Below the pieces are notes generated by a model, which was given only the letters and a program-made list of their open reading frames with translations, was not told the origin of the DNA and searched no databases. This document shows positions 30,401 to 53,076 of a stretch of 64,000 bases of DNA, one piece after another (within the stretch, counting starts at the first letter, position 1; every line of letters starts with the position of its first letter). The DNA is from Solimonas sp. SE-A11. Its GTDB lineage: Bacteria; Pseudomonadota; Gammaproteobacteria; Nevskiales; Nevskiaceae. The translations under genes were made by a program, and so were the position numbers. The DNA lies in contig NZ_JAUASX010000015.1 in assembly GCF_030345715.1 (NCBI RefSeq), positions 55,580 to 119,579 on the forward strand, in the 5' to 3' direction.

Positions 30401-32665
30401 ATGTCCCACGCTCATATCCTTGGCTTTCCCCGCATTGGCGCCCGGCGCGAGCTGAAGACCGCCGTGGAGGCCCACTGGCAGGGCCAGCTGAACGAAGCCG
30501 GTCTGCGCGCCGTGGGCCGCGAGCTGCGCAACCGCCACTGGGCGCTGCAGCAGGCCGCTGGCCTGGACTGCGTGACGGTGGGCGACTTCGCCTTCTACGA
30601 CCACCTGCACAACGCCACGGCGCTGTTCTCCGCCGCCCCGGCCCGCTTCGGCCTGGCCGGCCCGGTGGACCTGGCGGGCTACTTCGCCATGGCGCGCGGC
30701 ACGCCGGAGCAGCCGGCGCTGGCGATGAAGAAGTGGTTCGACACGAACTACCACTACCTGGTGCCGGAGGTGGATTCCCACACCACGTTCCGCCTCAACC
30801 GCGACTGGTTGCTGCCGGAACTGCAGGGCGCGCTGGCCGCAGGCCACCGCGCCAAGGTGGTGCTGCCCGGCCCGCTGACTTGGCTGTGGCTGGCCAGCGC
30901 GCCGGCCGGCTTCGACAAGCTCTCGTTGCTGCCGGCGCTGCAGTCGGTCTACGCCGAGCTGGCGGCTGAACTGCGCGCGCTGGGCGTGAGTTGGCTGCAG
31001 CTGGACGAGCCGATCCTGTCGCTGGACCTGCCGGGCGAATGGCTGGCGGCCTACCCGCAGGCCTATGGCGCCATCGCACCCGCGGCCCCGCCGGTGCTGC
31101 TGGCGACCTATTTCGGCAGCGTGGCCGAGCATGCGGCGCTGCTGAAGGCACTGCCGATCGTCGCGCTGCACCTGGACCTGGTCCGCTCACCGCGCCAGCT
31201 CGAGGCCTTCCTGCCGGACTGGCCGCAGGACAAGGCCCTGTCGCTGGGCGTGATCGACGGCCGCAACCTGTGGCGCACGGACCTGGCCAAGGTGCTGGCG
31301 CTGCTGCACCCGGCCAAGGCCCTGCTGGGCGAGCGCCTGTGGATCGCGCCGTCCTGCTCGCTGCTGCACGTGCCGCATGACCTGGCGCGGGAGGCCCAGC
31401 TCGATCCGACCATCAAGAGCTGGATGGCCTTCGCCGCGCAGAAGCTCGACGAGCTGTCGCTGCTCAAGCGCGCCCTGGAGCAGGGCGAGGCGGCCGTGTG
31501 GCGCGAACTGCAGGCCGCGGCTACCGCCATCGAGAGCCGCCGCCAAGCCCCGAGCACCCAGGTGGCCGCTGTGCGCGCCCGCGTCGCCGCGCTGAAGCCG
31601 GCGGATGCCGAGCGTGCCGCACCGTTCGCGCAGCGTATCGCCGCCCAGCAGGCGGTACTGAACCTACCCAAGCTGCCTACCACCACCATCGGCTCCTTCC
31701 CGCAGACCGCCGAGATCCGCGCGGCGCGCGCCGCATTCAAGGCCGGCAAGATCGGCGAGGCCGAGTACACCGCGGCGATGAAGGCCGAAATCAAGCTCTG
31801 CGTGGACAAGCAGGAGCAGTTGGGGATCGACGTGCTGGTGCACGGCGAGCCCGAACGCAACGACATGGTGGAGTACTTCGGCGAGCAGCTCGACGGCTAC
31901 ACCTTCACCCAGTTCGGCTGGGTGCAGAGCTATGGCTCGCGCTGCGTGAAGCCGCCGGTGATTTACGGCGACGTCTCTCGCCCCACGCCGATGACGGTGG
32001 AGTGGTCCCGCTATGCGCAGACCCTGACCGACAAGCCGATGAAGGGCATGCTCAGCGGCCCGCTGACGATGCTGTTCTGGAGCTTCGTGCGCGACGACCT
32101 GCCCAAGCGCGACGTGGCGCTGCAGCTGGCGCTGGCGCTGCGCGACGAGGTGGTGGACCTGGAAGCGGCGGGCATCAAGGTGATCCAGATCGACGAGCCG
32201 ACGATCCGCGAAGGCCTGCCGTTGAAGAAGGCGGACTGGCCGGCGTATCTCGACTGGGCGGTTCAGGCCTTCCGCATCACCGCCGCGGGCGTGCGCAACG
32301 AAACGCAGATCCACACGCACATGTGCTACTCGGAGTTCAACGACATCCTGTCGTCCATCGCGGCGCTGGATGCGGACGTGATCACCATCGAGACCTCGCG
32401 TGCGCGCATGAAGCTGCTGGATGGCTTCGCCGAGTTCCGCTACCCGAACGACATCGGGCCCGGGCTCTACGACATCCACTCGCCGCGCGTGCCCGCGCAA
32501 GCGGAGATGCAGGAACTGCTGCAGCGCGCGCTGAAGGTGGTGCCGGCCGAACGCCTGTGGGTGAACCCGGACTGCGGCCTGAAGACCCGTGGCTGGGCGG
32601 AGACGGAAGCGGCACTGAAGACCATGGTGGCGACGGCCCGCGAGGCGCGGGCGGCGCTGAACTGA
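30401..32665 (+). CDS. metE: Cobalamin-independent methionine synthase
   Basis: A 754-residue enzyme that transfers a methyl group from methyltetrahydrofolate-triglutamate to homocysteine. The N-terminal opening [15 protein letters not shown] is typical. The C-terminal catalytic half has [29 protein letters not shown], and the zinc ligands in [13 protein letters not shown] (His and Cys) and [12 protein letters not shown] (Cys). Length matches the E. coli enzyme. Regulation by the adjacent MetR is expected; the short leader has no riboswitch. Confidence 0.97.
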
Positions 32666-42475: not shown

Positions 42476-43363
42476 CTACGATTCCTTGCGGTAGAGGCTC
42501 ACGATGCTGGAGAAATCCAGCGCGCCCGATGCGGCACTGTGCAGGCCGTAGAGATTGCGCGCCAGTTCGCCCAGCGGGATCGGGCTGCCGCTGGCGATGG
42601 AAGCTTCCGCCGCCAGGCCCAGGTCCTTGAGCATCAGGCTGCTGCCGAAACCGCCGCTGTAACCACGCGAGGCCGGCACGTTGTCCTGCACGCCCGGCCA
42701 GGGGTTGTACAGCTCCAGCGACCAGTTGCGGCCGGAACTCTTCACCATGATCTCGGATAGCACCTTGGGATCCAGGCCGTTGGCGACACCGAGCGCGAGC
42801 GCCTCCGCGGTACCGGCCATGTGGATCGCCAGCAGCATGTTGTTGGCGATCTTCGCCACCTGGCCCGCGCCATTGCCGCCGGCATGGAAGATGTTCTTGC
42901 CCATGGCCGACAGGTAGGGGCGCGCGCGCTCCAGCGCCTCGGCCGCGCCGCCGACAATGAAGGTCAGCGTGCCGGCCGCTGCACCAGCGGTGCCGCCGGA
43001 AACCGGGGCGTCGATGAAGACGATGCCGCGCGCCTGCGCCGCCTCCGCCACCTTGCGCGAGCTGGCCGGGGCGATGGTAGAGCAGTCGATCACCAGGGTG
43101 CCTGCGGCGATCTTCCCGATCAGGCCATCCGTGCCCAGGTACAGCGATTCGACATGCTGGCTGGCCGGCAGCATGGAGATCACGGTCTCCGCTCCCTGGA
43201 CGGCCTCCGCCGGGCTGGTCGCCACCGTGGCACCGGCGGCACGCGCGGCCTCCAGCGCGGTGGGCGAGAGATCGAACACGCGCAGGGCGTGGCCGGCCTT
43301 GATCAGGTTGAGCGCCATGGGGCCGCCCATGTTGCCGAGGCCGATGAATGCGATTTGGGTCAT
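42476..43363 (-). CDS. mmsB: 3-hydroxyisobutyrate dehydrogenase
   Basis: A 295-residue NAD-dependent enzyme that oxidises 3-hydroxyisobutyrate to methylmalonate semialdehyde. The motif IAFIGLGNMGGPMALNLIKAGH forms the cofactor site, FIDAPVSGGTAGA is the substrate-binding signature, and the catalytic lysine lies in GQVAKIANNMLLAI. Last gene of the valine operon, separated from the hydrolase gene by a palindromic repeat element. Confidence 0.94.
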   Translation of the reverse strand: MTQIAFIGLGNMGGPMALNLIKAGHALRVFDLSPTALEAARAAGATVATSPAEAVQGAETVISMLPASQHVESLYLGTDGLIGKIAAGTLVIDCSTIAPASSRKVAEAAQARGIVFIDAPVSGGTAGAAAGTLTFIVGGAAEALERARPYLSAMGKNIFHAGGNGAGQVAKIANNMLLAIHMAGTAEALALGVANGLDPKVLSEIMVKSSGRNWSLELYNPWPGVQDNVPASRGYSGGFGSSLMLKDLGLAAEASIASGSPIPLGELARNLYGLHSAASGALDFSSIVSLYRKES

Positions 43364-43504: not shown

Positions 43505-44641
43505 CTAGATGCCCACCGACGCCGCGCTGTCCGTCCAGGGTGCGCGGAAGTGTTCTTCCACCCACTCCGGCGTCACCTCCGCCAGCGTCGGCGGGGTCCA
43601 CTTCGGCACGTTGTCCTTGTCGATCAGCAGCGCACGTACGCCTTCCGCGAAATCCGGATGGGCACAGCACTGCAGCGCCACGACCAGCTCCAGACGGAAC
43701 ACCTCGGACAGGCTCAATGCGGCAGCGCGCTCGCGCAGCGCCCAGACCAGCGCGGCCGTGGTGGGCGAGCCGGCCGCCAGGGTGGCGGCGGCGCGCTTGA
43801 GCCAGGGATCGTCGCCGGCATAGCCGGTAATGGCGACGTGGACCTCCGCCAGCGTGGCGCCGGCGGTGAGCGCTTCGATGGCCTGCGCATGCTGCTGCAG
43901 CGGCGAGGCCGGCAGCAGCTCCCGTGCAGGCTCGGCAAGCGTCGCCAGTACAGCACTCAGCACCGCACGATTGGCGTCGGCGTCATCGCTCCAGTCCACG
44001 GCCGCCAACTGCTGGAACAGGCTGTCGCGATCGGCGCTGCGGACGAAGTGATCGCCCAGGCCCGCCACCAGCAGGTCATGGCCGTTGATGGACGCGCCGG
44101 TCAGCGCCAGGAACAGGCCCATGCGTCCCGGCATGCGGCGCAGGAACCAGCTGCCGCCCACGTCCGGGAACAGGCCGATGGTGATCTCCGGCATGGCCAC
44201 GCGCGAGGTCTCGGTGACCACGCGATGGCTGGCGCCCGCCATCAGGCCCAGGCCGCCGCCCATGACAATACCGCTGCCCCAGACCATCAGCGGCTTGGGG
44301 TAGCGGTGGATGCGGTAGTCCAGGCTGTATTCCTCGTCGAAGAAGGCGAGGTTGGCCAGGTTCGGCGGCGGCCCCTGGTGATCCAGGATGGCGCGGTACA
44401 GGCTGCGCACGTCCCCGCCGGCGCAGAAGGCCTTTTCGCCGGCGCCGTGCAGCACCACGCAGGCAATGCCGGGATCGGACGACCAGCGCTGCAACTGCGG
44501 ATCGAGCAGGCGGATCATTGGCAGGCTCAGCGCATTGAGCGACTTCTCGACGTTGAGCTGGGCGAAGCCGATGCGCTTGCCGTTGGCCGCCTTGACCTCG
44601 CGGAACAGGACCGGCGCGTCCTGGGTGGTGGCGTCAGCCAT
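43505..44641 (-). CDS. 3-hydroxyisobutyryl-CoA hydrolase
   Basis: A 378-residue member of the crotonase fold of HIBCH type, which frees 3-hydroxyisobutyrate from CoA in valine breakdown. Key stretches are EKAFCAGGDVRSLYR (oxyanion hole), MVWGSGIVMGGGLGLMAGASHRVVTE, and MPEITIGLFPDVGGSWFLRRMPG, whose Glu and Asp positions match the hydrolase branch. The C-terminal half is the longer HIBCH extension. The start at 44641 overlaps the upstream gene by 8 bases. Confidence 0.9.
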   Translation of the reverse strand: MADATTQDAPVLFREVKAANGKRIGFAQLNVEKSLNALSLPMIRLLDPQLQRWSSDPGIACVVLHGAGEKAFCAGGDVRSLYRAILDHQGPPPNLANLAFFDEEYSLDYRIHRYPKPLMVWGSGIVMGGGLGLMAGASHRVVTETSRVAMPEITIGLFPDVGGSWFLRRMPGRMGLFLALTGASINGHDLLVAGLGDHFVRSADRDSLFQQLAAVDWSDDADANRAVLSAVLATLAEPARELLPASPLQQHAQAIEALTAGATLAEVHVAITGYAGDDPWLKRAAATLAAGSPTTAALVWALRERAAALSLSEVFRLELVVALQCCAHPDFAEGVRALLIDKDNVPKWTPPTLAEVTPEWVEEHFRAPWTDSAASVGI

Positions 44642-45413
44642 TGCGCCACTCCGGCTTGCGCTTCTCCAGGAAGGCGTTGACGCCTTCCTTCTGGTCCTGG
44701 GTGTCGAACAGGTCCACGAAGCGCTCGCGCTCCACCGGCAGGATCTGGCGCAGCGGGTTGCCGCGCGCACCCTGGATCAGCGTCTTGCAGACGGCGACGC
44801 TGGTGGGGCTCTGCTTGCTCACCTGTTCGGCCAGCTTCAGCGCCGCCTCCAGCGCACCGCCGCTGGGCACCACCTGTTCCACCAGGCCGATACGCAGTGC
44901 GGTGGCGGCGTCGATGCGCTCGCCGCAAAGGATCAGGCGCTTGGCCCAGCCCTCGCCCACCAGCCAGGGCAGGTTTTGTGTGCCGCCGGCGCAGGGCAGC
45001 AGGCCGACGGTGGCCTCCGGCAGCGCCATCTGCGCATGCTCCTCGGCGATGCGCAGGTCGCAGGCCAGCGCCGCCTCCAGGCCGCCGCCCATAGCGTAGC
45101 CGTTGATCGCGGCGATGCTGACGCCACGGAAGTCCGACAGCGCCTCGAAGGCCTCTCCGAAGCGTCGCGCCATGTCGCGTGCACGCGCCTTGTCGCCATC
45201 GGCGAACAGCTTCAGGTCGGCGCCGGCGGAGAAGAACTTGGCGCCTTCGCCGGTGACGACCAGCGCATATATCTCGCGATCCGCGTTCAGGTCCGCCACC
45301 AGGCGCCTGAGGTCGGCCAGGCTCTCCGCCGTCCAGGTGTGGGCCGGCGGGTTGCTCAAGAACAGGATGGCGGTGTGGCCGCGCTTCTCCAGCTTCAGGT
45401 TGGTGTAGCTCAT
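44634..45413 (-). CDS. Enoyl-CoA hydratase
   Basis: A 259-residue crotonase-family enzyme, probably the methacrylyl-CoA hydratase of the valine pathway. GAKFFSAGADLKLFAD gives the oxyanion hole and ALPEATVGLLPCAGGTQNLPWLVG the catalytic region, with a glutamate in the family position. It is translationally coupled: 4-base overlap with the acyl-CoA dehydrogenase gene and 8-base overlap with the hydrolase gene. Confidence 0.9.
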   Translation of the reverse strand: MSYTNLKLEKRGHTAILFLSNPPAHTWTAESLADLRRLVADLNADREIYALVVTGEGAKFFSAGADLKLFADGDKARARDMARRFGEAFEALSDFRGVSIAAINGYAMGGGLEAALACDLRIAEEHAQMALPEATVGLLPCAGGTQNLPWLVGEGWAKRLILCGERIDAATALRIGLVEQVVPSGGALEAALKLAEQVSKQSPTSVAVCKTLIQGARGNPLRQILPVERERFVDLFDTQDQKEGVNAFLEKRKPEWRNG

Positions 45414-46570
45414 CTCAACTCCTCGGTTGCGCCCTCGCGCAAGATGGCGCGGGCGACGATCACCCGCATGATTTCGTTGGTCCCTTCCAGGATCTGGTGC
45501 ACCCGGTTGTCGCGCAGGTGGCGCTCCAGCGGGAATTCCTTCATGTAGCCGTAGCCGCCGTGCAGCTGCAGCGCCTCGTTGGCCACCTTGAATCCCGCAT
45601 CGGTCGCATAGCGCTTGGCCATGGCGCAGTAGGTGGTGGCATCGCTGCTGCCGGTATCCAGCTTCCAGGCGCCGAGCCGCACCATCTGCCGCGCCGCCAC
45701 CAGTTCCGTCAGCATGTCGGCGAGCATGAACTGCAAGGCCTGGAACTGCGCGATGGGGCTGCCGAACTGCTTGCGCTCGTGGATGTAGCCCTGCGCACGA
45801 TCCAGCGCCGCCTGCGCGGTGCCGATCGAGCAGGTGGCGATGTTGATGCGCCCGCCGTCGAGCCCCTTCATGGCGATGGCAAAGCCCTGGCCCTCGGCGC
45901 CGATGCGGTTCTGTTCGGGCACCTCGACGTTGTCGAAGCTGATCATCCGCGTGGGCTGGCTGTTCCAGCCCATCTTGTGTTCCTTCTTGCCGTAGGAGAT
46001 GCCCGGGCTGTCCGCCGGCACCGCGAAGGCGCTGATGCCCTTGGGTCCTTCCGCGCCGGTGCGCGCCATCACCACGAGCCAGTCGGTGGAGCCGGCGCCG
46101 GAGATGAACACCTTGGTGCCATTGAGCAGGTAGTAGCCGCCACGCTTCTCCGCGCGGGTCTTCAGCGCCGCCGCATCGGAGCCCGCTCCGGGCTCGGTCA
46201 GGCAGTACGAGGCCAGCAGTTCACCGGCCGCGAGCCTGGGCACCCACTGCCGGGCAAGCTGCTCCTGCCCCCAGGTGGCGAACATCCAGGTCGCCATGTT
46301 GTGGATGGTGATGAAGGCCGTGGTGCTGGTGCAGCCGGCCGCCAGCTCCTCGAAGATGACCGAGGAGTCGAGGCGTGACAGGCCCAGGCCACCGAGCGCC
46401 TCCGGCGTGTAGAGGCCGCAGAAGCCCAGCTCGCCGGCCTTGGCGATCGTCTCCCGTGGAAACTCGGACTCCGCGTCCCATTGGGCAGCGTAGGGCGCCA
46501 GTTCATGGCGCGCGAAATCACGCGCCGCCGCCTGCAACGCACGCTGCTCGTCGTTGAGTGAGAACTCCAT
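45410..46570 (-). CDS. Acyl-CoA dehydrogenase, isobutyryl-CoA type
   Basis: A 386-residue FAD enzyme. SYCLTEPGAGSDAAALKT is the substrate and flavin motif and the catalytic glutamate lies near QILEGTNEIMRVIVARAIL. Its position between mmsA and the hydratase/hydrolase genes points to isobutyryl-CoA as substrate, giving methacrylyl-CoA. Exact chain specificity cannot be proven by sequence alone. Confidence 0.9.
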   Translation of the reverse strand: MEFSLNDEQRALQAAARDFARHELAPYAAQWDAESEFPRETIAKAGELGFCGLYTPEALGGLGLSRLDSSVIFEELAAGCTSTTAFITIHNMATWMFATWGQEQLARQWVPRLAAGELLASYCLTEPGAGSDAAALKTRAEKRGGYYLLNGTKVFISGAGSTDWLVVMARTGAEGPKGISAFAVPADSPGISYGKKEHKMGWNSQPTRMISFDNVEVPEQNRIGAEGQGFAIAMKGLDGGRINIATCSIGTAQAALDRAQGYIHERKQFGSPIAQFQALQFMLADMLTELVAARQMVRLGAWKLDTGSSDATTYCAMAKRYATDAGFKVANEALQLHGGYGYMKEFPLERHLRDNRVHQILEGTNEIMRVIVARAILREGATEELR

Positions 46571-46581
46571 GACGCATGGCC

Positions 46582-48105
46582 TTATTTCAGGCTGATCGTG
46601 GTGTTCACGCCGACCGACAGCGTGCTGTCGTCGAACCAGCGCTGCGTGACGGTCTTGGTCTGGGTGTAGAACAGGATGACCTGCTTGCCGTAGGGCCCCA
46701 GGTCGCCCAGCTTGGAACCGCGCGAGCCGGTGAAGGAGAACAGCGGCACCGGTACCGGGATCGGCACGTTGATGCCGACCTGGCCGACGTCGATGTCTTC
46801 CTGGAACTTGCGCGCGGCGGCGCCGGACTGCGTGAACAGCGCCACGCCGTTGCCGTTGGGGTTGCTGTTGATCAGCTCGATCGCTTCATCCAGCGTGTCC
46901 ACCGAGACGATCACCTGCACCGGCCCGAAGATCTCCTGGTCGTAGATCGACATGCCGGGCCTGGCGCCCGAGAAGATCGTGGGGCCGACGAAGTTGCCGC
47001 TCTCGTAGCCGGGAACGGACGGATTGCGCCCGTCCAGCTCCAGCGTGGCGCCGTCGGCCAGGCCGCGGGCGATCAGGCCGTCGACGCGCTCGCGCGCCGC
47101 GCGGGACACCACGGGGCCGACATCGGTACCGGGCTCATGGCCGGCATTGACCTTGAGCGTCCTGGCCTTGGCGACGATCTCGGGAATCCACTGCTTGGCC
47201 TCGCCCACCAGCACCGTCACCGAGGCCGCCATGCAGCGCTGGCCGGCGGCGCCGAAGGCCGCGCCGGCGAGGTTGTTGAGCGCCTGCTCCTTGTTGGCGT
47301 CCGGCAGCACCACGGCGTGGTTCTTGGCGCCCATCATGCACTGGGCGCGCTTGCCGGCCAGGGTTGCGCGGTTGTAGACGTGCGTGCCGACCTTGGTCGA
47401 ACCCACGAAGGACACGGCCTTGATGTCCGCGTGATCGCAGATGCCGTTGACGATGTCCGGGCCGCCGTGGATCACGTTGAGCACGCCCTTGGGAATGCCG
47501 GCCTCCAGGGCCAGCTCCACCAGGCGCATGGTCACCATCGGGTCCTGCTCCGAAGGCTTCAGCACGAAGGTGTTGCCGGTGGCGATGGCCATGGGGAACA
47601 TCCACAGCGGGATCATCGCGGGGAAGTTGAACGGCGTGATGCCGGCGCAGACGCCCAGCGGCTGCAGGATGGTGTAGGTGTCCACGCCGCCGGCGACGTT
47701 GGTGGCCAGTTCGCCCATCTGCAGCGTGCCGATGTTGGCGGCGTGCTCCACCACCTCCAGGCCGCGGAACACGTCGCCCTCGGCGTCCGGCAGGGTCTTG
47801 CCCTGCTCGGCGGTGAGGATGGCGGCGAGTTCCTTCATGTTCTCGCGGATCAGCTGCTGGTACTTCAGGAAGATGCGTGCGCGCACACCGATCGGTGTCT
47901 TGCGCCAGGTCTTGAAGGCGTCCTTGGCGGCTGCCACGGCGGCGTCGAGCTCTGCCGGCGTGGCAAAAGGCACGCGGGCCAGAACCTGCTGCGTGGCCGG
48001 GTTGATCACGTCGCGCCACTCGCGCGACTGCGACTCGATGAATTCGCCGTTGATCAGCAGCTTGACGCCGGGGATTGCCGCGTTGGGCTTGAGGACAGCC
48101 GACAT
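46582..48105 (-). CDS. mmsA: Methylmalonate-semialdehyde dehydrogenase (CoA-acylating)
   Basis: A 507-residue aldehyde dehydrogenase that turns methylmalonate semialdehyde into propionyl-CoA and CO2. VLKPSEQDP forms the cofactor pocket, SFVGSTKVG the NAD motif, and [10 protein letters not shown] holds the catalytic cysteine. The start MSAVLKPN (48105) has a GGAG site 8-9 bases upstream; the longer frame was rejected. First gene of the valine operon, with a 5' leader of about 370 bases that contains a cobalamin riboswitch. Confidence 0.95.
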
Positions 48106-48255
48106 GATGTGTGCTCCGCAAAACGTCGCGGTCTGCCCGGGGAAGGCGCGCACAGCCGCCCGGCCGGACAAGGCTCAGGTCAGGGCACGCACGCTTCGTG
48201 TTTCCGTCTGCAAACCGCCATGCCGTCACGCCCACCGCGAACGGGATTCTTGAAC

Positions 48256-48281
48256 GCATGGCCTGGCTTTCCAGGTCATGC
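48256..48281 (-). other. Candidate expression platform of the riboswitch
   Basis: On the minus strand GCATG-A-CCTGG and CCAGG-C-CATGC form a hairpin directly after riboswitch P1. Its CAGGCC segment (plus-strand 48260-48265) can instead pair with GGCCTG in the 3' B12 box region (48287-48292), so two exclusive folds are possible. No U tract follows. Confidence 0.4.
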
Positions 48282-48282
48282 G

Positions 48283-48472
48283 CATGCAGGCCGGTCTCCG
48301 GACTTGCAAGGATTTCTGCGCGGCCTTCCCGATGCATGACATCAGTGGCGTAGAAGCGCAGCGACGCTTGCTTACCGTTGCGGGGGCAGTTGCGGAATGT
48401 CCGGGCGAGTTCGCCGGGGGCACCGTATTCCCGTTTCACCCTGCGTCCGGAAAGGACCAGGGCACCTGCATG
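48283..48472 (-). ncRNA. Cobalamin riboswitch
   Basis: Read on the minus strand, the conserved parts occur in order. P1 CATGCAGG/CCTGCATG lies at the ends (48465-48472 and 48283-48290). GGGAATACGGTG is at 48421-48432, and the core CTGCCCCCGCAACGGTAA at 48372-48389. GCCACTG is at 48343-48349, GGGAAGGC at 48323-48330, and the B12 box AGTCCGGAGACCGGCC at 48289-48304. All match the adenosylcobalamin aptamer consensus. It sits 178 bases before mmsA in the same direction, with no btuB or cob gene following. Confidence 0.93.
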
Positions 48473-48478
48473 GCGCGG

Positions 48479-48484
48479 ATTCTA
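48479..48484 (-). promoter_or_regulatory. Candidate -10 box for the riboswitch transcript
   Basis: TAGAAT on the minus strand matches TATAAT at five of six positions. Transcription would begin near 48472, where riboswitch P1 starts. No good -35 hexamer was found. Confidence 0.4.
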
Positions 48485-48546
48485 GTGCGAGTCCCGGACG
48501 ATGGCAGTGACGGAATCCGTCCATCGGCATGATCTTCTTTGCCATG

Positions 48547-52284: not shown

Positions 52285-53076
52285 ATGGATGGAGCCGCCG
52301 TGCTGCGCCGCCTGCTGATCCTGCTGTGCTTCTGCGCCCTGCCCGCCAGGGCCGGCTTCATCGACGAGCGCCCGGACCTGGAACCCCTGTTCGGCGGCAC
52401 GCCCGGCTGCTTCGCGCTCTACGACGTGGCCGCCGACCGCCTGCTGCTGGTGAACCCCGGGCGGGCGAACACGCGCTACATCCCCGCCTCCACCTTCAAG
52501 CTCGCCAACAGCCTGATCGCGCTGGAGACCGCGGCCGTGCGCGACATCGACGAGGTGATCCCCTACGGCGGCCAAGCCCAGCCCTTCAAGGCCTGGGAGA
52601 AGGACATGCCGATGCGCGAGGCCTTCCCGGCGTCCAACGTGCCGGTGTACCAGGAGATCGCGCGCCGCGTCGGCCTGCCGCGCATGCAGGCGATGCTGGA
52701 ACGCCTGGACTACGGCAACCACAACGCCGGCACCGTGGTGGACCGCTTCTGGCTGCGGGGCCCGCTGCAGATCAGCGCGGTGGAGCAGGCCCGCTTCGTC
52801 GCCCGGCTGGCGCAGGGCCAGCTGCCGTTTTCAGCGGGCAGCCAGTCCGCCGTGCGCGAGATCGCGGGGATCGAGACCCGTGGCGGCGACGTGCTTTATG
52901 GCAAGACCGGCTGGGTCTTCGGCACACAGCCGCAGATCGGCTGGTGGGTGGGCTGGGTGGAACGGGAGGGGCGCGTCTACGGCTTCGCCCTCAACATCGA
53001 CCTGCAGGGCGAGCAGGACATCGGCAAGCGCCGGCAGGTCGGCGAGGCCATCCTGCGCCAGCTGCAGTTGTTCTAG
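52285..53076 (+). CDS. Class D (OXA-type) beta-lactamase
   Basis: A 263-residue exported serine beta-lactamase. A signal peptide of about 23 residues ends ARA. Class D motifs are complete: STFK with Ser69 and the carbamylatable Lys72, SNV at 117-119, YGN at 143-145 and KTG at 207-209. The [13 protein letters not shown] segment (156-168) is also typical. The ATG at 52285 gives the signal peptide. It is chromosomal, with no integron or IS nearby, so it is an intrinsic enzyme. Its stop shares a CTAG palindrome with hemF. Confidence 0.92.

Follow-up and report, generated by a model that had tools for sequence, protein, structure and literature searches.

In the window, the whole 64,000-nt stretch of Solimonas sp. 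SE-A11 DNA that was analysed, a cobalamin riboswitch precedes mmsA, the first gene of a valine-degradation operon. The riboswitch is real and recurrent, its target is unusual, and one published precedent was found; the riboswitch, the operon and the link between both are supported by profile matches and by recurrence in relatives. As a reason for this arrangement it is proposed, and considered fairly probable, that low B12 turns on the operon as a B12-free isobutyryl-CoA route when the B12-dependent enzyme IcmF cannot work.

Aptamer, promoter and operon

The window was scanned against Rfam using cmscan, and the single match at or above gathering score was RF00174 (Cobalamin), at 109.6 bits (gathering score 31.5, E 1.5e-26). 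An earlier note, made from the letters of this DNA, had placed a cobalamin riboswitch at 48283-48472 on the minus strand and proposed scoring it with the Rfam cobalamin model; that interval lies inside the full-length match (48484-48273), well over the cut-off. The order of the genes that follow on the minus strand, as read in the same note, was borne out, with profile matches over their cut-offs for all but the acyl-CoA dehydrogenase. The features are:

48479..48507, minus strand: sigma70-like promoter CTGCCA-N17-TAGAAT at the 5' edge of the aptamer, read by eye
48273..48484, minus strand: cobalamin riboswitch aptamer, full length (RF00174, model 1-189 of 189)
46582..48105, minus strand: mmsA, methylmalonate-semialdehyde dehydrogenase (TIGR01722, 720.7 bits, cut-off 448.5)
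45410..46570, minus strand: acyl-CoA dehydrogenase, presumed isobutyryl-CoA dehydrogenase from its place in the operon
44634..45413, minus strand: enoyl-CoA hydratase (PRK09076 subfamily, 458.7, cut-off 286)
43505..44641, minus strand: 3-hydroxyisobutyryl-CoA hydrolase (PRK05617, 355.2, cut-off 274)
42476..43363, minus strand: mmsB, 3-hydroxyisobutyrate dehydrogenase (TIGR01692, 424.3 bits, cut-off 291.6)

The substrate of the acyl-CoA dehydrogenase is taken from the operon because no NCBIfam equivalog reaches its cut-off for this protein. The aptamer is on the same strand as mmsA, whose start is 167 nt downstream, and the promoter-like site lies at the aptamer edge. The -10 element at this edge reads TAGAAT in all five Nevskiaceae leaders and TACACT in 10/10 leaders from the family of Luteibacter. 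The ligand is presumably adenosylcobalamin. Two candidate reading frames in the leader were rejected: a longer MmsA start just 3' of the aptamer, for which the frame is open in L036 and L038 and contains a stop codon in the window, and a short upstream open reading frame seen by eye, for which the frame is gone in L037.

The window genome has one further cobalamin riboswitch, located before a putative TonB-type receptor gene (named by reading). metE is within the window (30401-32665, plus strand), and the cmscan run over the whole window found no Rfam riboswitch match there, in agreement with the earlier remark that metE has no such leader. The window also carries a chromosomal class D beta-lactamase gene (52285-53076, plus strand), which scores 273 bits with the general NCBIfam class D model (cut-off 250); no named OXA model reaches its cut-off.

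Recurrence upstream of mmsA

Searching 58 Nevskiaceae genomes yielded 75 cobalamin riboswitch matches in 55 of them. Targets were named by clustering and tblastn, with names other than mmsA and BLUF given by sequence reading only: 63 matches precede TonB-type receptors, 5 mmsA, 4 BLUF proteins and 1 a PepSY-like protein, and 2 are near cobO at a distance of 600-735 nt. The receptor-gene riboswitches, one of which is in the window genome, share the Rfam aptamer of the mmsA leaders and are far more common (63/75 versus 5/75). RF00174 was found upstream of mmsA in 4/4 genomes of the window's genus and in G041, a member of another Nevskiaceae genus. Since 36 copies of MmsA (TIGR01722) are present in 29 of the 58 genomes, the switch is absent from most copies.

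The search was extended to 80 named mmsA loci (one short of upstream DNA), where the motif was present in two, Luteibacter rhizovicinus and Solimicrobium silvestre, both confirmed by Rfam (97.1 and 110.8 bits, respectively). In the family of Luteibacter, a close MmsA (E <= 1e-180) was found in 10 of 117 sampled genomes, and each of these ten MmsA genes is preceded on its own strand by an RF00174 match (97-115 bits); the remaining 107 may hold more distant MmsA proteins. No riboswitch precedes the close MmsA of L165, a Luteibacter metagenome-assembled genome (MAG) outside this sample. In a class-level sample, at least four of 369 genomes contained a close MmsA (E <= 1e-220, with up to four candidates scored per genome), and the motif was in none of the three besides the window's own. 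A plasmid search gave one match, weak and partial. The regular expression used for spotting riboswitches recovers 71 of 73 fetched Rfam-positive regions, and absence was judged by it alone for most Nevskiaceae mmsA loci and for every named locus except L140 and L143.

The check for the same leader in relatives, also proposed in the earlier note, thus found it across the genus and in G041, Luteibacter's family and Solimicrobium. In 16/16 cases the riboswitch is close upstream of mmsA on the same strand, and the five-gene order after the switch is identical in the five Nevskiaceae genomes and also in L140 and L143. Because the pairing recurs in relatives, mere coincidence is disfavoured. In a phylogeny of 125 MmsA proteins, produced by a quick search and with 49 of 116 inner branches unsupported, the distribution of the switch (16 rows) requires five changes, at least three of them forced by well-supported branches; the switch has therefore been gained or lost repeatedly, or has moved.

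Three of the four genomes of the genus encode a second MmsA (L269, L270 and L271), a distant paralogue of ~49% identity, beside which neither a riboswitch motif nor another operon gene was found; the window's genome, unlike these congeners, has a single MmsA. The BLUF cases are L039, L040, L049 and L055 (Nevskiaceae genomes G020, G013, G016 and G019), each with a cobalamin riboswitch upstream, and at 123.4 and 122.9 bits the riboswitches of L039 and L040 score highest in the family. The protein is ~430 aa long and carries a BLUF blue-light domain at its N-terminus; the C-terminal stretch of the L040 protein, which was scanned, weakly resembles SCHIC (AppA) and B12-binding domains, both below Pfam cut-offs. 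The protein is possibly a light receptor tied to B12. At L060, two cobalamin riboswitches on opposite strands lie back to back (G001:C1:421996-422265 minus and 422301-422513 plus); the gene after one of them encodes a TonB-type receptor and the gene after the other a PepSY-like membrane protein (both named by reading).

Leader elements and a Streptomyces precedent

Between the aptamer and the mmsA start, candidate elements of an expression platform were located, listed here with the aptamer loop that the first of them may pair with:

48380..48387, minus strand: aptamer loop L5, GCCCCCGC, from the sequence and the Rfam structure line
48232..48238, minus strand: putative L13 partner GCGGTGG, complementary to L5 at 6/7 positions
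48114..48131, minus strand: predicted hairpin CCGCGA-cgtt-TTGCGG over part of the mmsA Shine-Dalgarno GGAG

The motif GCGGNGG, picked after the leaders had been viewed, occurs within 50 nt 3' of the aptamer in 15/15 leaders, versus 1.41 expected from shuffles. These 15 are the leaders with an assigned start codon; the sixteenth is L143. Against L5 the motif matches at 6/7 positions, with one mismatch. An unbroken L5 complement of at least 5 nt is missing from 4 of the 16 leaders, the window's included; L143 passes this test with GCGGG.

In the window, the predicted hairpin gives GGAG a pairing probability of 0.66, and the Shine-Dalgarno region is predicted to be mostly paired in 15/15 leaders (0.63-1.00; AGGA was used instead of GGAG for L227, L229 and L230). 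The predicted pairing comes from long stems in the leaders of Luteibacter's family; in Nevskiaceae it comes from a local hairpin that is short and lies ~100 nt after the L13-like motif. Folding energies compared with shuffles gave z from 0.33 to -4.03, clearly better in only some leaders, and four of the five Nevskiaceae leaders resembled shuffles. For Luteibacter's family, RNAalifold assigned the leaders a covariation term of +0.74, which leaves the global structure unsupported. Swapping of arms, in windows selected after the folds were seen, gave weak support for compensatory change in Luteibacter's family, where own arms pair better (as low in 461 of 20000 permutations), and none in Nevskiaceae (4015 of 20000). 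The presence of an L13-like motif and a predicted hairpin on the mmsA ribosome-binding site suggests translational control, and the aptamer may be coupled to the Shine-Dalgarno hairpin.

The arrangement had been described in the earlier note as not a standard one. This is fair, and it is already in print for one organism: in Streptomyces griseus, the methylmalonate-semialdehyde dehydrogenase gene SGR_RS05925 is preceded by a cobalamin riboswitch, and the authors noted no cobalamin work on these enzymes (PMC8914203). Since this paper dates from 2022, the pairing is not new as such. The pairing takes up a single paragraph of its results and some of its discussion, and the text available holds no comparative or IcmF explanation. 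As far as that text goes, S. griseus shares with the present cases the riboswitch family (by Rfam), the type of target gene and valine-degradation genes downstream; it differs in being an actinomycete in which transcription ends prematurely and control is apparently transcriptional, whereas the leaders here look translational. In a partial full-text literature search the pairing was described only in PMC8914203, and a link between it and IcmF was not met; it is not described in the available part of PMC11494915. Operons of Streptomyces ambofaciens are stated in the main text of PMC8388888 to carry cobalamin riboswitches, which are itemised in its supplement.

B12-dependent enzymes and a proposed reason for control

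The window genome lacks a canonical methylmalonyl-CoA mutase. Its PF01642 gene encodes a fused protein of 1148 aa that scores 1668 bits with the NF045497 equivalog (cut-off 1500) and matches the solved IcmF (PDB 4xc6). Judged by sequence, the genome would have a B12-dependent enzyme for the operon's substrate, given the activity expected of IcmF and the substrate presumed for the dehydrogenase. Propionyl-CoA also has a route, in that prpB is beside prpC, an aconitase-family gene, prpF and prpR, a methylcitrate gene cluster, and prpB is over its cut-off in all five Nevskiaceae genomes with the switch. The mutase domain of the IcmF at L187 6790-10236 (G000, contig C9) carries an insert of ~40 residues, by which its Pfam match is split; many relatives show the same pattern, and the forms of G041 and Solimicrobium are without the insert. 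The cellular role of IcmF is poorly defined.

Riboswitch and IcmF were compared over 89 MmsA rows from 88 genomes for which both traits were known. From the 125 rows, 10 of the paralogue clade, L178 (short upstream), 6 duplicates, 18 Variovorax loci and L134 were left out; G016 is counted twice, and an internal stop interrupts one of its copies, L268. Proteins were called IcmF by their pattern of PF01642 matches and by open-frame length, using pieces in some fragmented genomes (G026, G012), with two proteins checked by NF045497 and five by full alignment. An IcmF-type gene is present in 16/16 genomes with the riboswitch before mmsA and in 16 of 73 mmsA rows without it. Fisher's test gives p = 3e-9 with kinship ignored; three independent pairs were available on supported branches, of which IcmF agrees in two to three and opposes in none (sign test 0.25-0.5). 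The association is only suggestive because the contrasts number about three independent lineages. IcmF occurs without the riboswitch in 15 Nevskiaceae rows (14 genomes) and in L162; it is therefore insufficient, and does not require the switch.

The proposal that we prefer is a plausible one built on gene content. At high adenosylcobalamin, a class-I-type cobalamin riboswitch would repress the operon for degradation of valine (isobutyryl-CoA). The bound ligand would lock L5 and L13 in a kissing loop and favour the hairpin that hides the mmsA ribosome-binding site, and without B12 the operon would be translated. IcmF would convert isobutyryl-CoA to n-butyryl-CoA for beta-oxidation with B12, and the operon would carry isobutyryl-CoA to propionyl-CoA and the methylcitrate cycle without it. 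In Streptomyces albus, the accessible part of PMC8176718 reports that valine-derived isobutyryl-CoA goes to butyryl-CoA with isobutyryl-CoA mutase raised. The riboswitch would then govern a B12-free substitute for a B12 enzyme, as with metE and metH elsewhere. There, cobalamin riboswitches act on metE, which stands in for metH and needs no B12 (from the consulted text of PMC9600662), and the hypothesised likeness is that the alternative is repressed when the B12 enzyme can work; the difference is that a whole alternative pathway, not an isozyme, would be controlled here.

The riboswitch could instead act for a reason independent of IcmF, such as a general adjustment to scarce B12, with IcmF present through shared ancestry. 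This accords with the few independent contrasts and with the near universality of IcmF in both main families (PF01642 is in 110 of the 117 genomes of Luteibacter's family, mostly as the fused type), but switch and IcmF co-vary between the tree neighbours G041 (both) and G043 (neither), between L140 (both) and L165 (neither; a MAG), and between Solimicrobium (both) and Comamonadaceae with the canonical mutase, and we regard such a reason as unlikely.

The operon could also be a B12-free propionate shunt (propionyl-CoA to acrylyl-CoA, 3-hydroxypropionate, malonate semialdehyde and acetyl-CoA), on at low B12. In Caenorhabditis elegans such a shunt is repressed by B12 and combines acyl-CoA dehydrogenase, hydratase, hydroxyacyl-CoA hydrolase and hydroxyacid-oxoacid transhydrogenase enzymes with a homologue of ALDH6A1 (PMC4951191, in part). 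The last is of the MmsA type, and four of the five enzyme types are present in the operon. The shunt was initially favoured and was downgraded given the methylcitrate genes, which in the window genome already form a B12-free propionate route, and the absence of a canonical methylmalonyl-CoA mutase to bypass; the fourth enzyme here, moreover, is a 3-hydroxyisobutyrate dehydrogenase (HIBADH) and not a transhydrogenase. It is now considered quite improbable. Production of a short regulatory RNA that leaves mmsA uncontrolled would fit the leader's own promoter-like site and the premature ends in S. griseus, but is very improbable given the constant position close upstream of mmsA on the same strand and the hairpin predicted over its ribosome-binding site. 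The reason offered in the earlier note, that B12 supply is matched to methylmalonyl-CoA mutase handling valine-derived propionyl-CoA, follows known propionyl-CoA chemistry and is scarcely credible, as the genomes examined contradict it: the canonical mutase is in 0/16 genomes with the switch versus 44/73 mmsA rows without, the B12 enzyme shared by all 16 belongs to the IcmF type and acts earlier in the valine route, and with its methylcitrate genes the window genome should not need B12 for propionyl-CoA.

The IcmF proposal can be stated more widely, and more tentatively, as a claim just short of probable: in several bacterial lineages, a B12 riboswitch on the valine operon would switch isobutyryl-CoA between IcmF and the B12-free route. 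If this is true, an RNA reroutes a whole catabolic pathway by a vitamin, with the IcmF branch ending in butyryl-CoA and acetyl-CoA and the B12-free branch in propionyl-CoA. Such rerouting would parallel, in bacteria, the propionate shunt of C. elegans, sharing similar enzyme types and a hypothesised induction at low B12, whereas the shunt is transcriptional, acts on another substrate and belongs to an animal (comparison with the portion of PMC4951191 seen). In a survey of cobalamin riboswitch regulons, the genes were sorted into those for making B12, for taking up B12 or cobalt, and for isozymes of B12 enzymes (from the section of PMC3766115 consulted). If an entire route of amino-acid catabolism is recurrently under such control, these gene classes would be extended, and IcmF would gain a testable place in valine metabolism.
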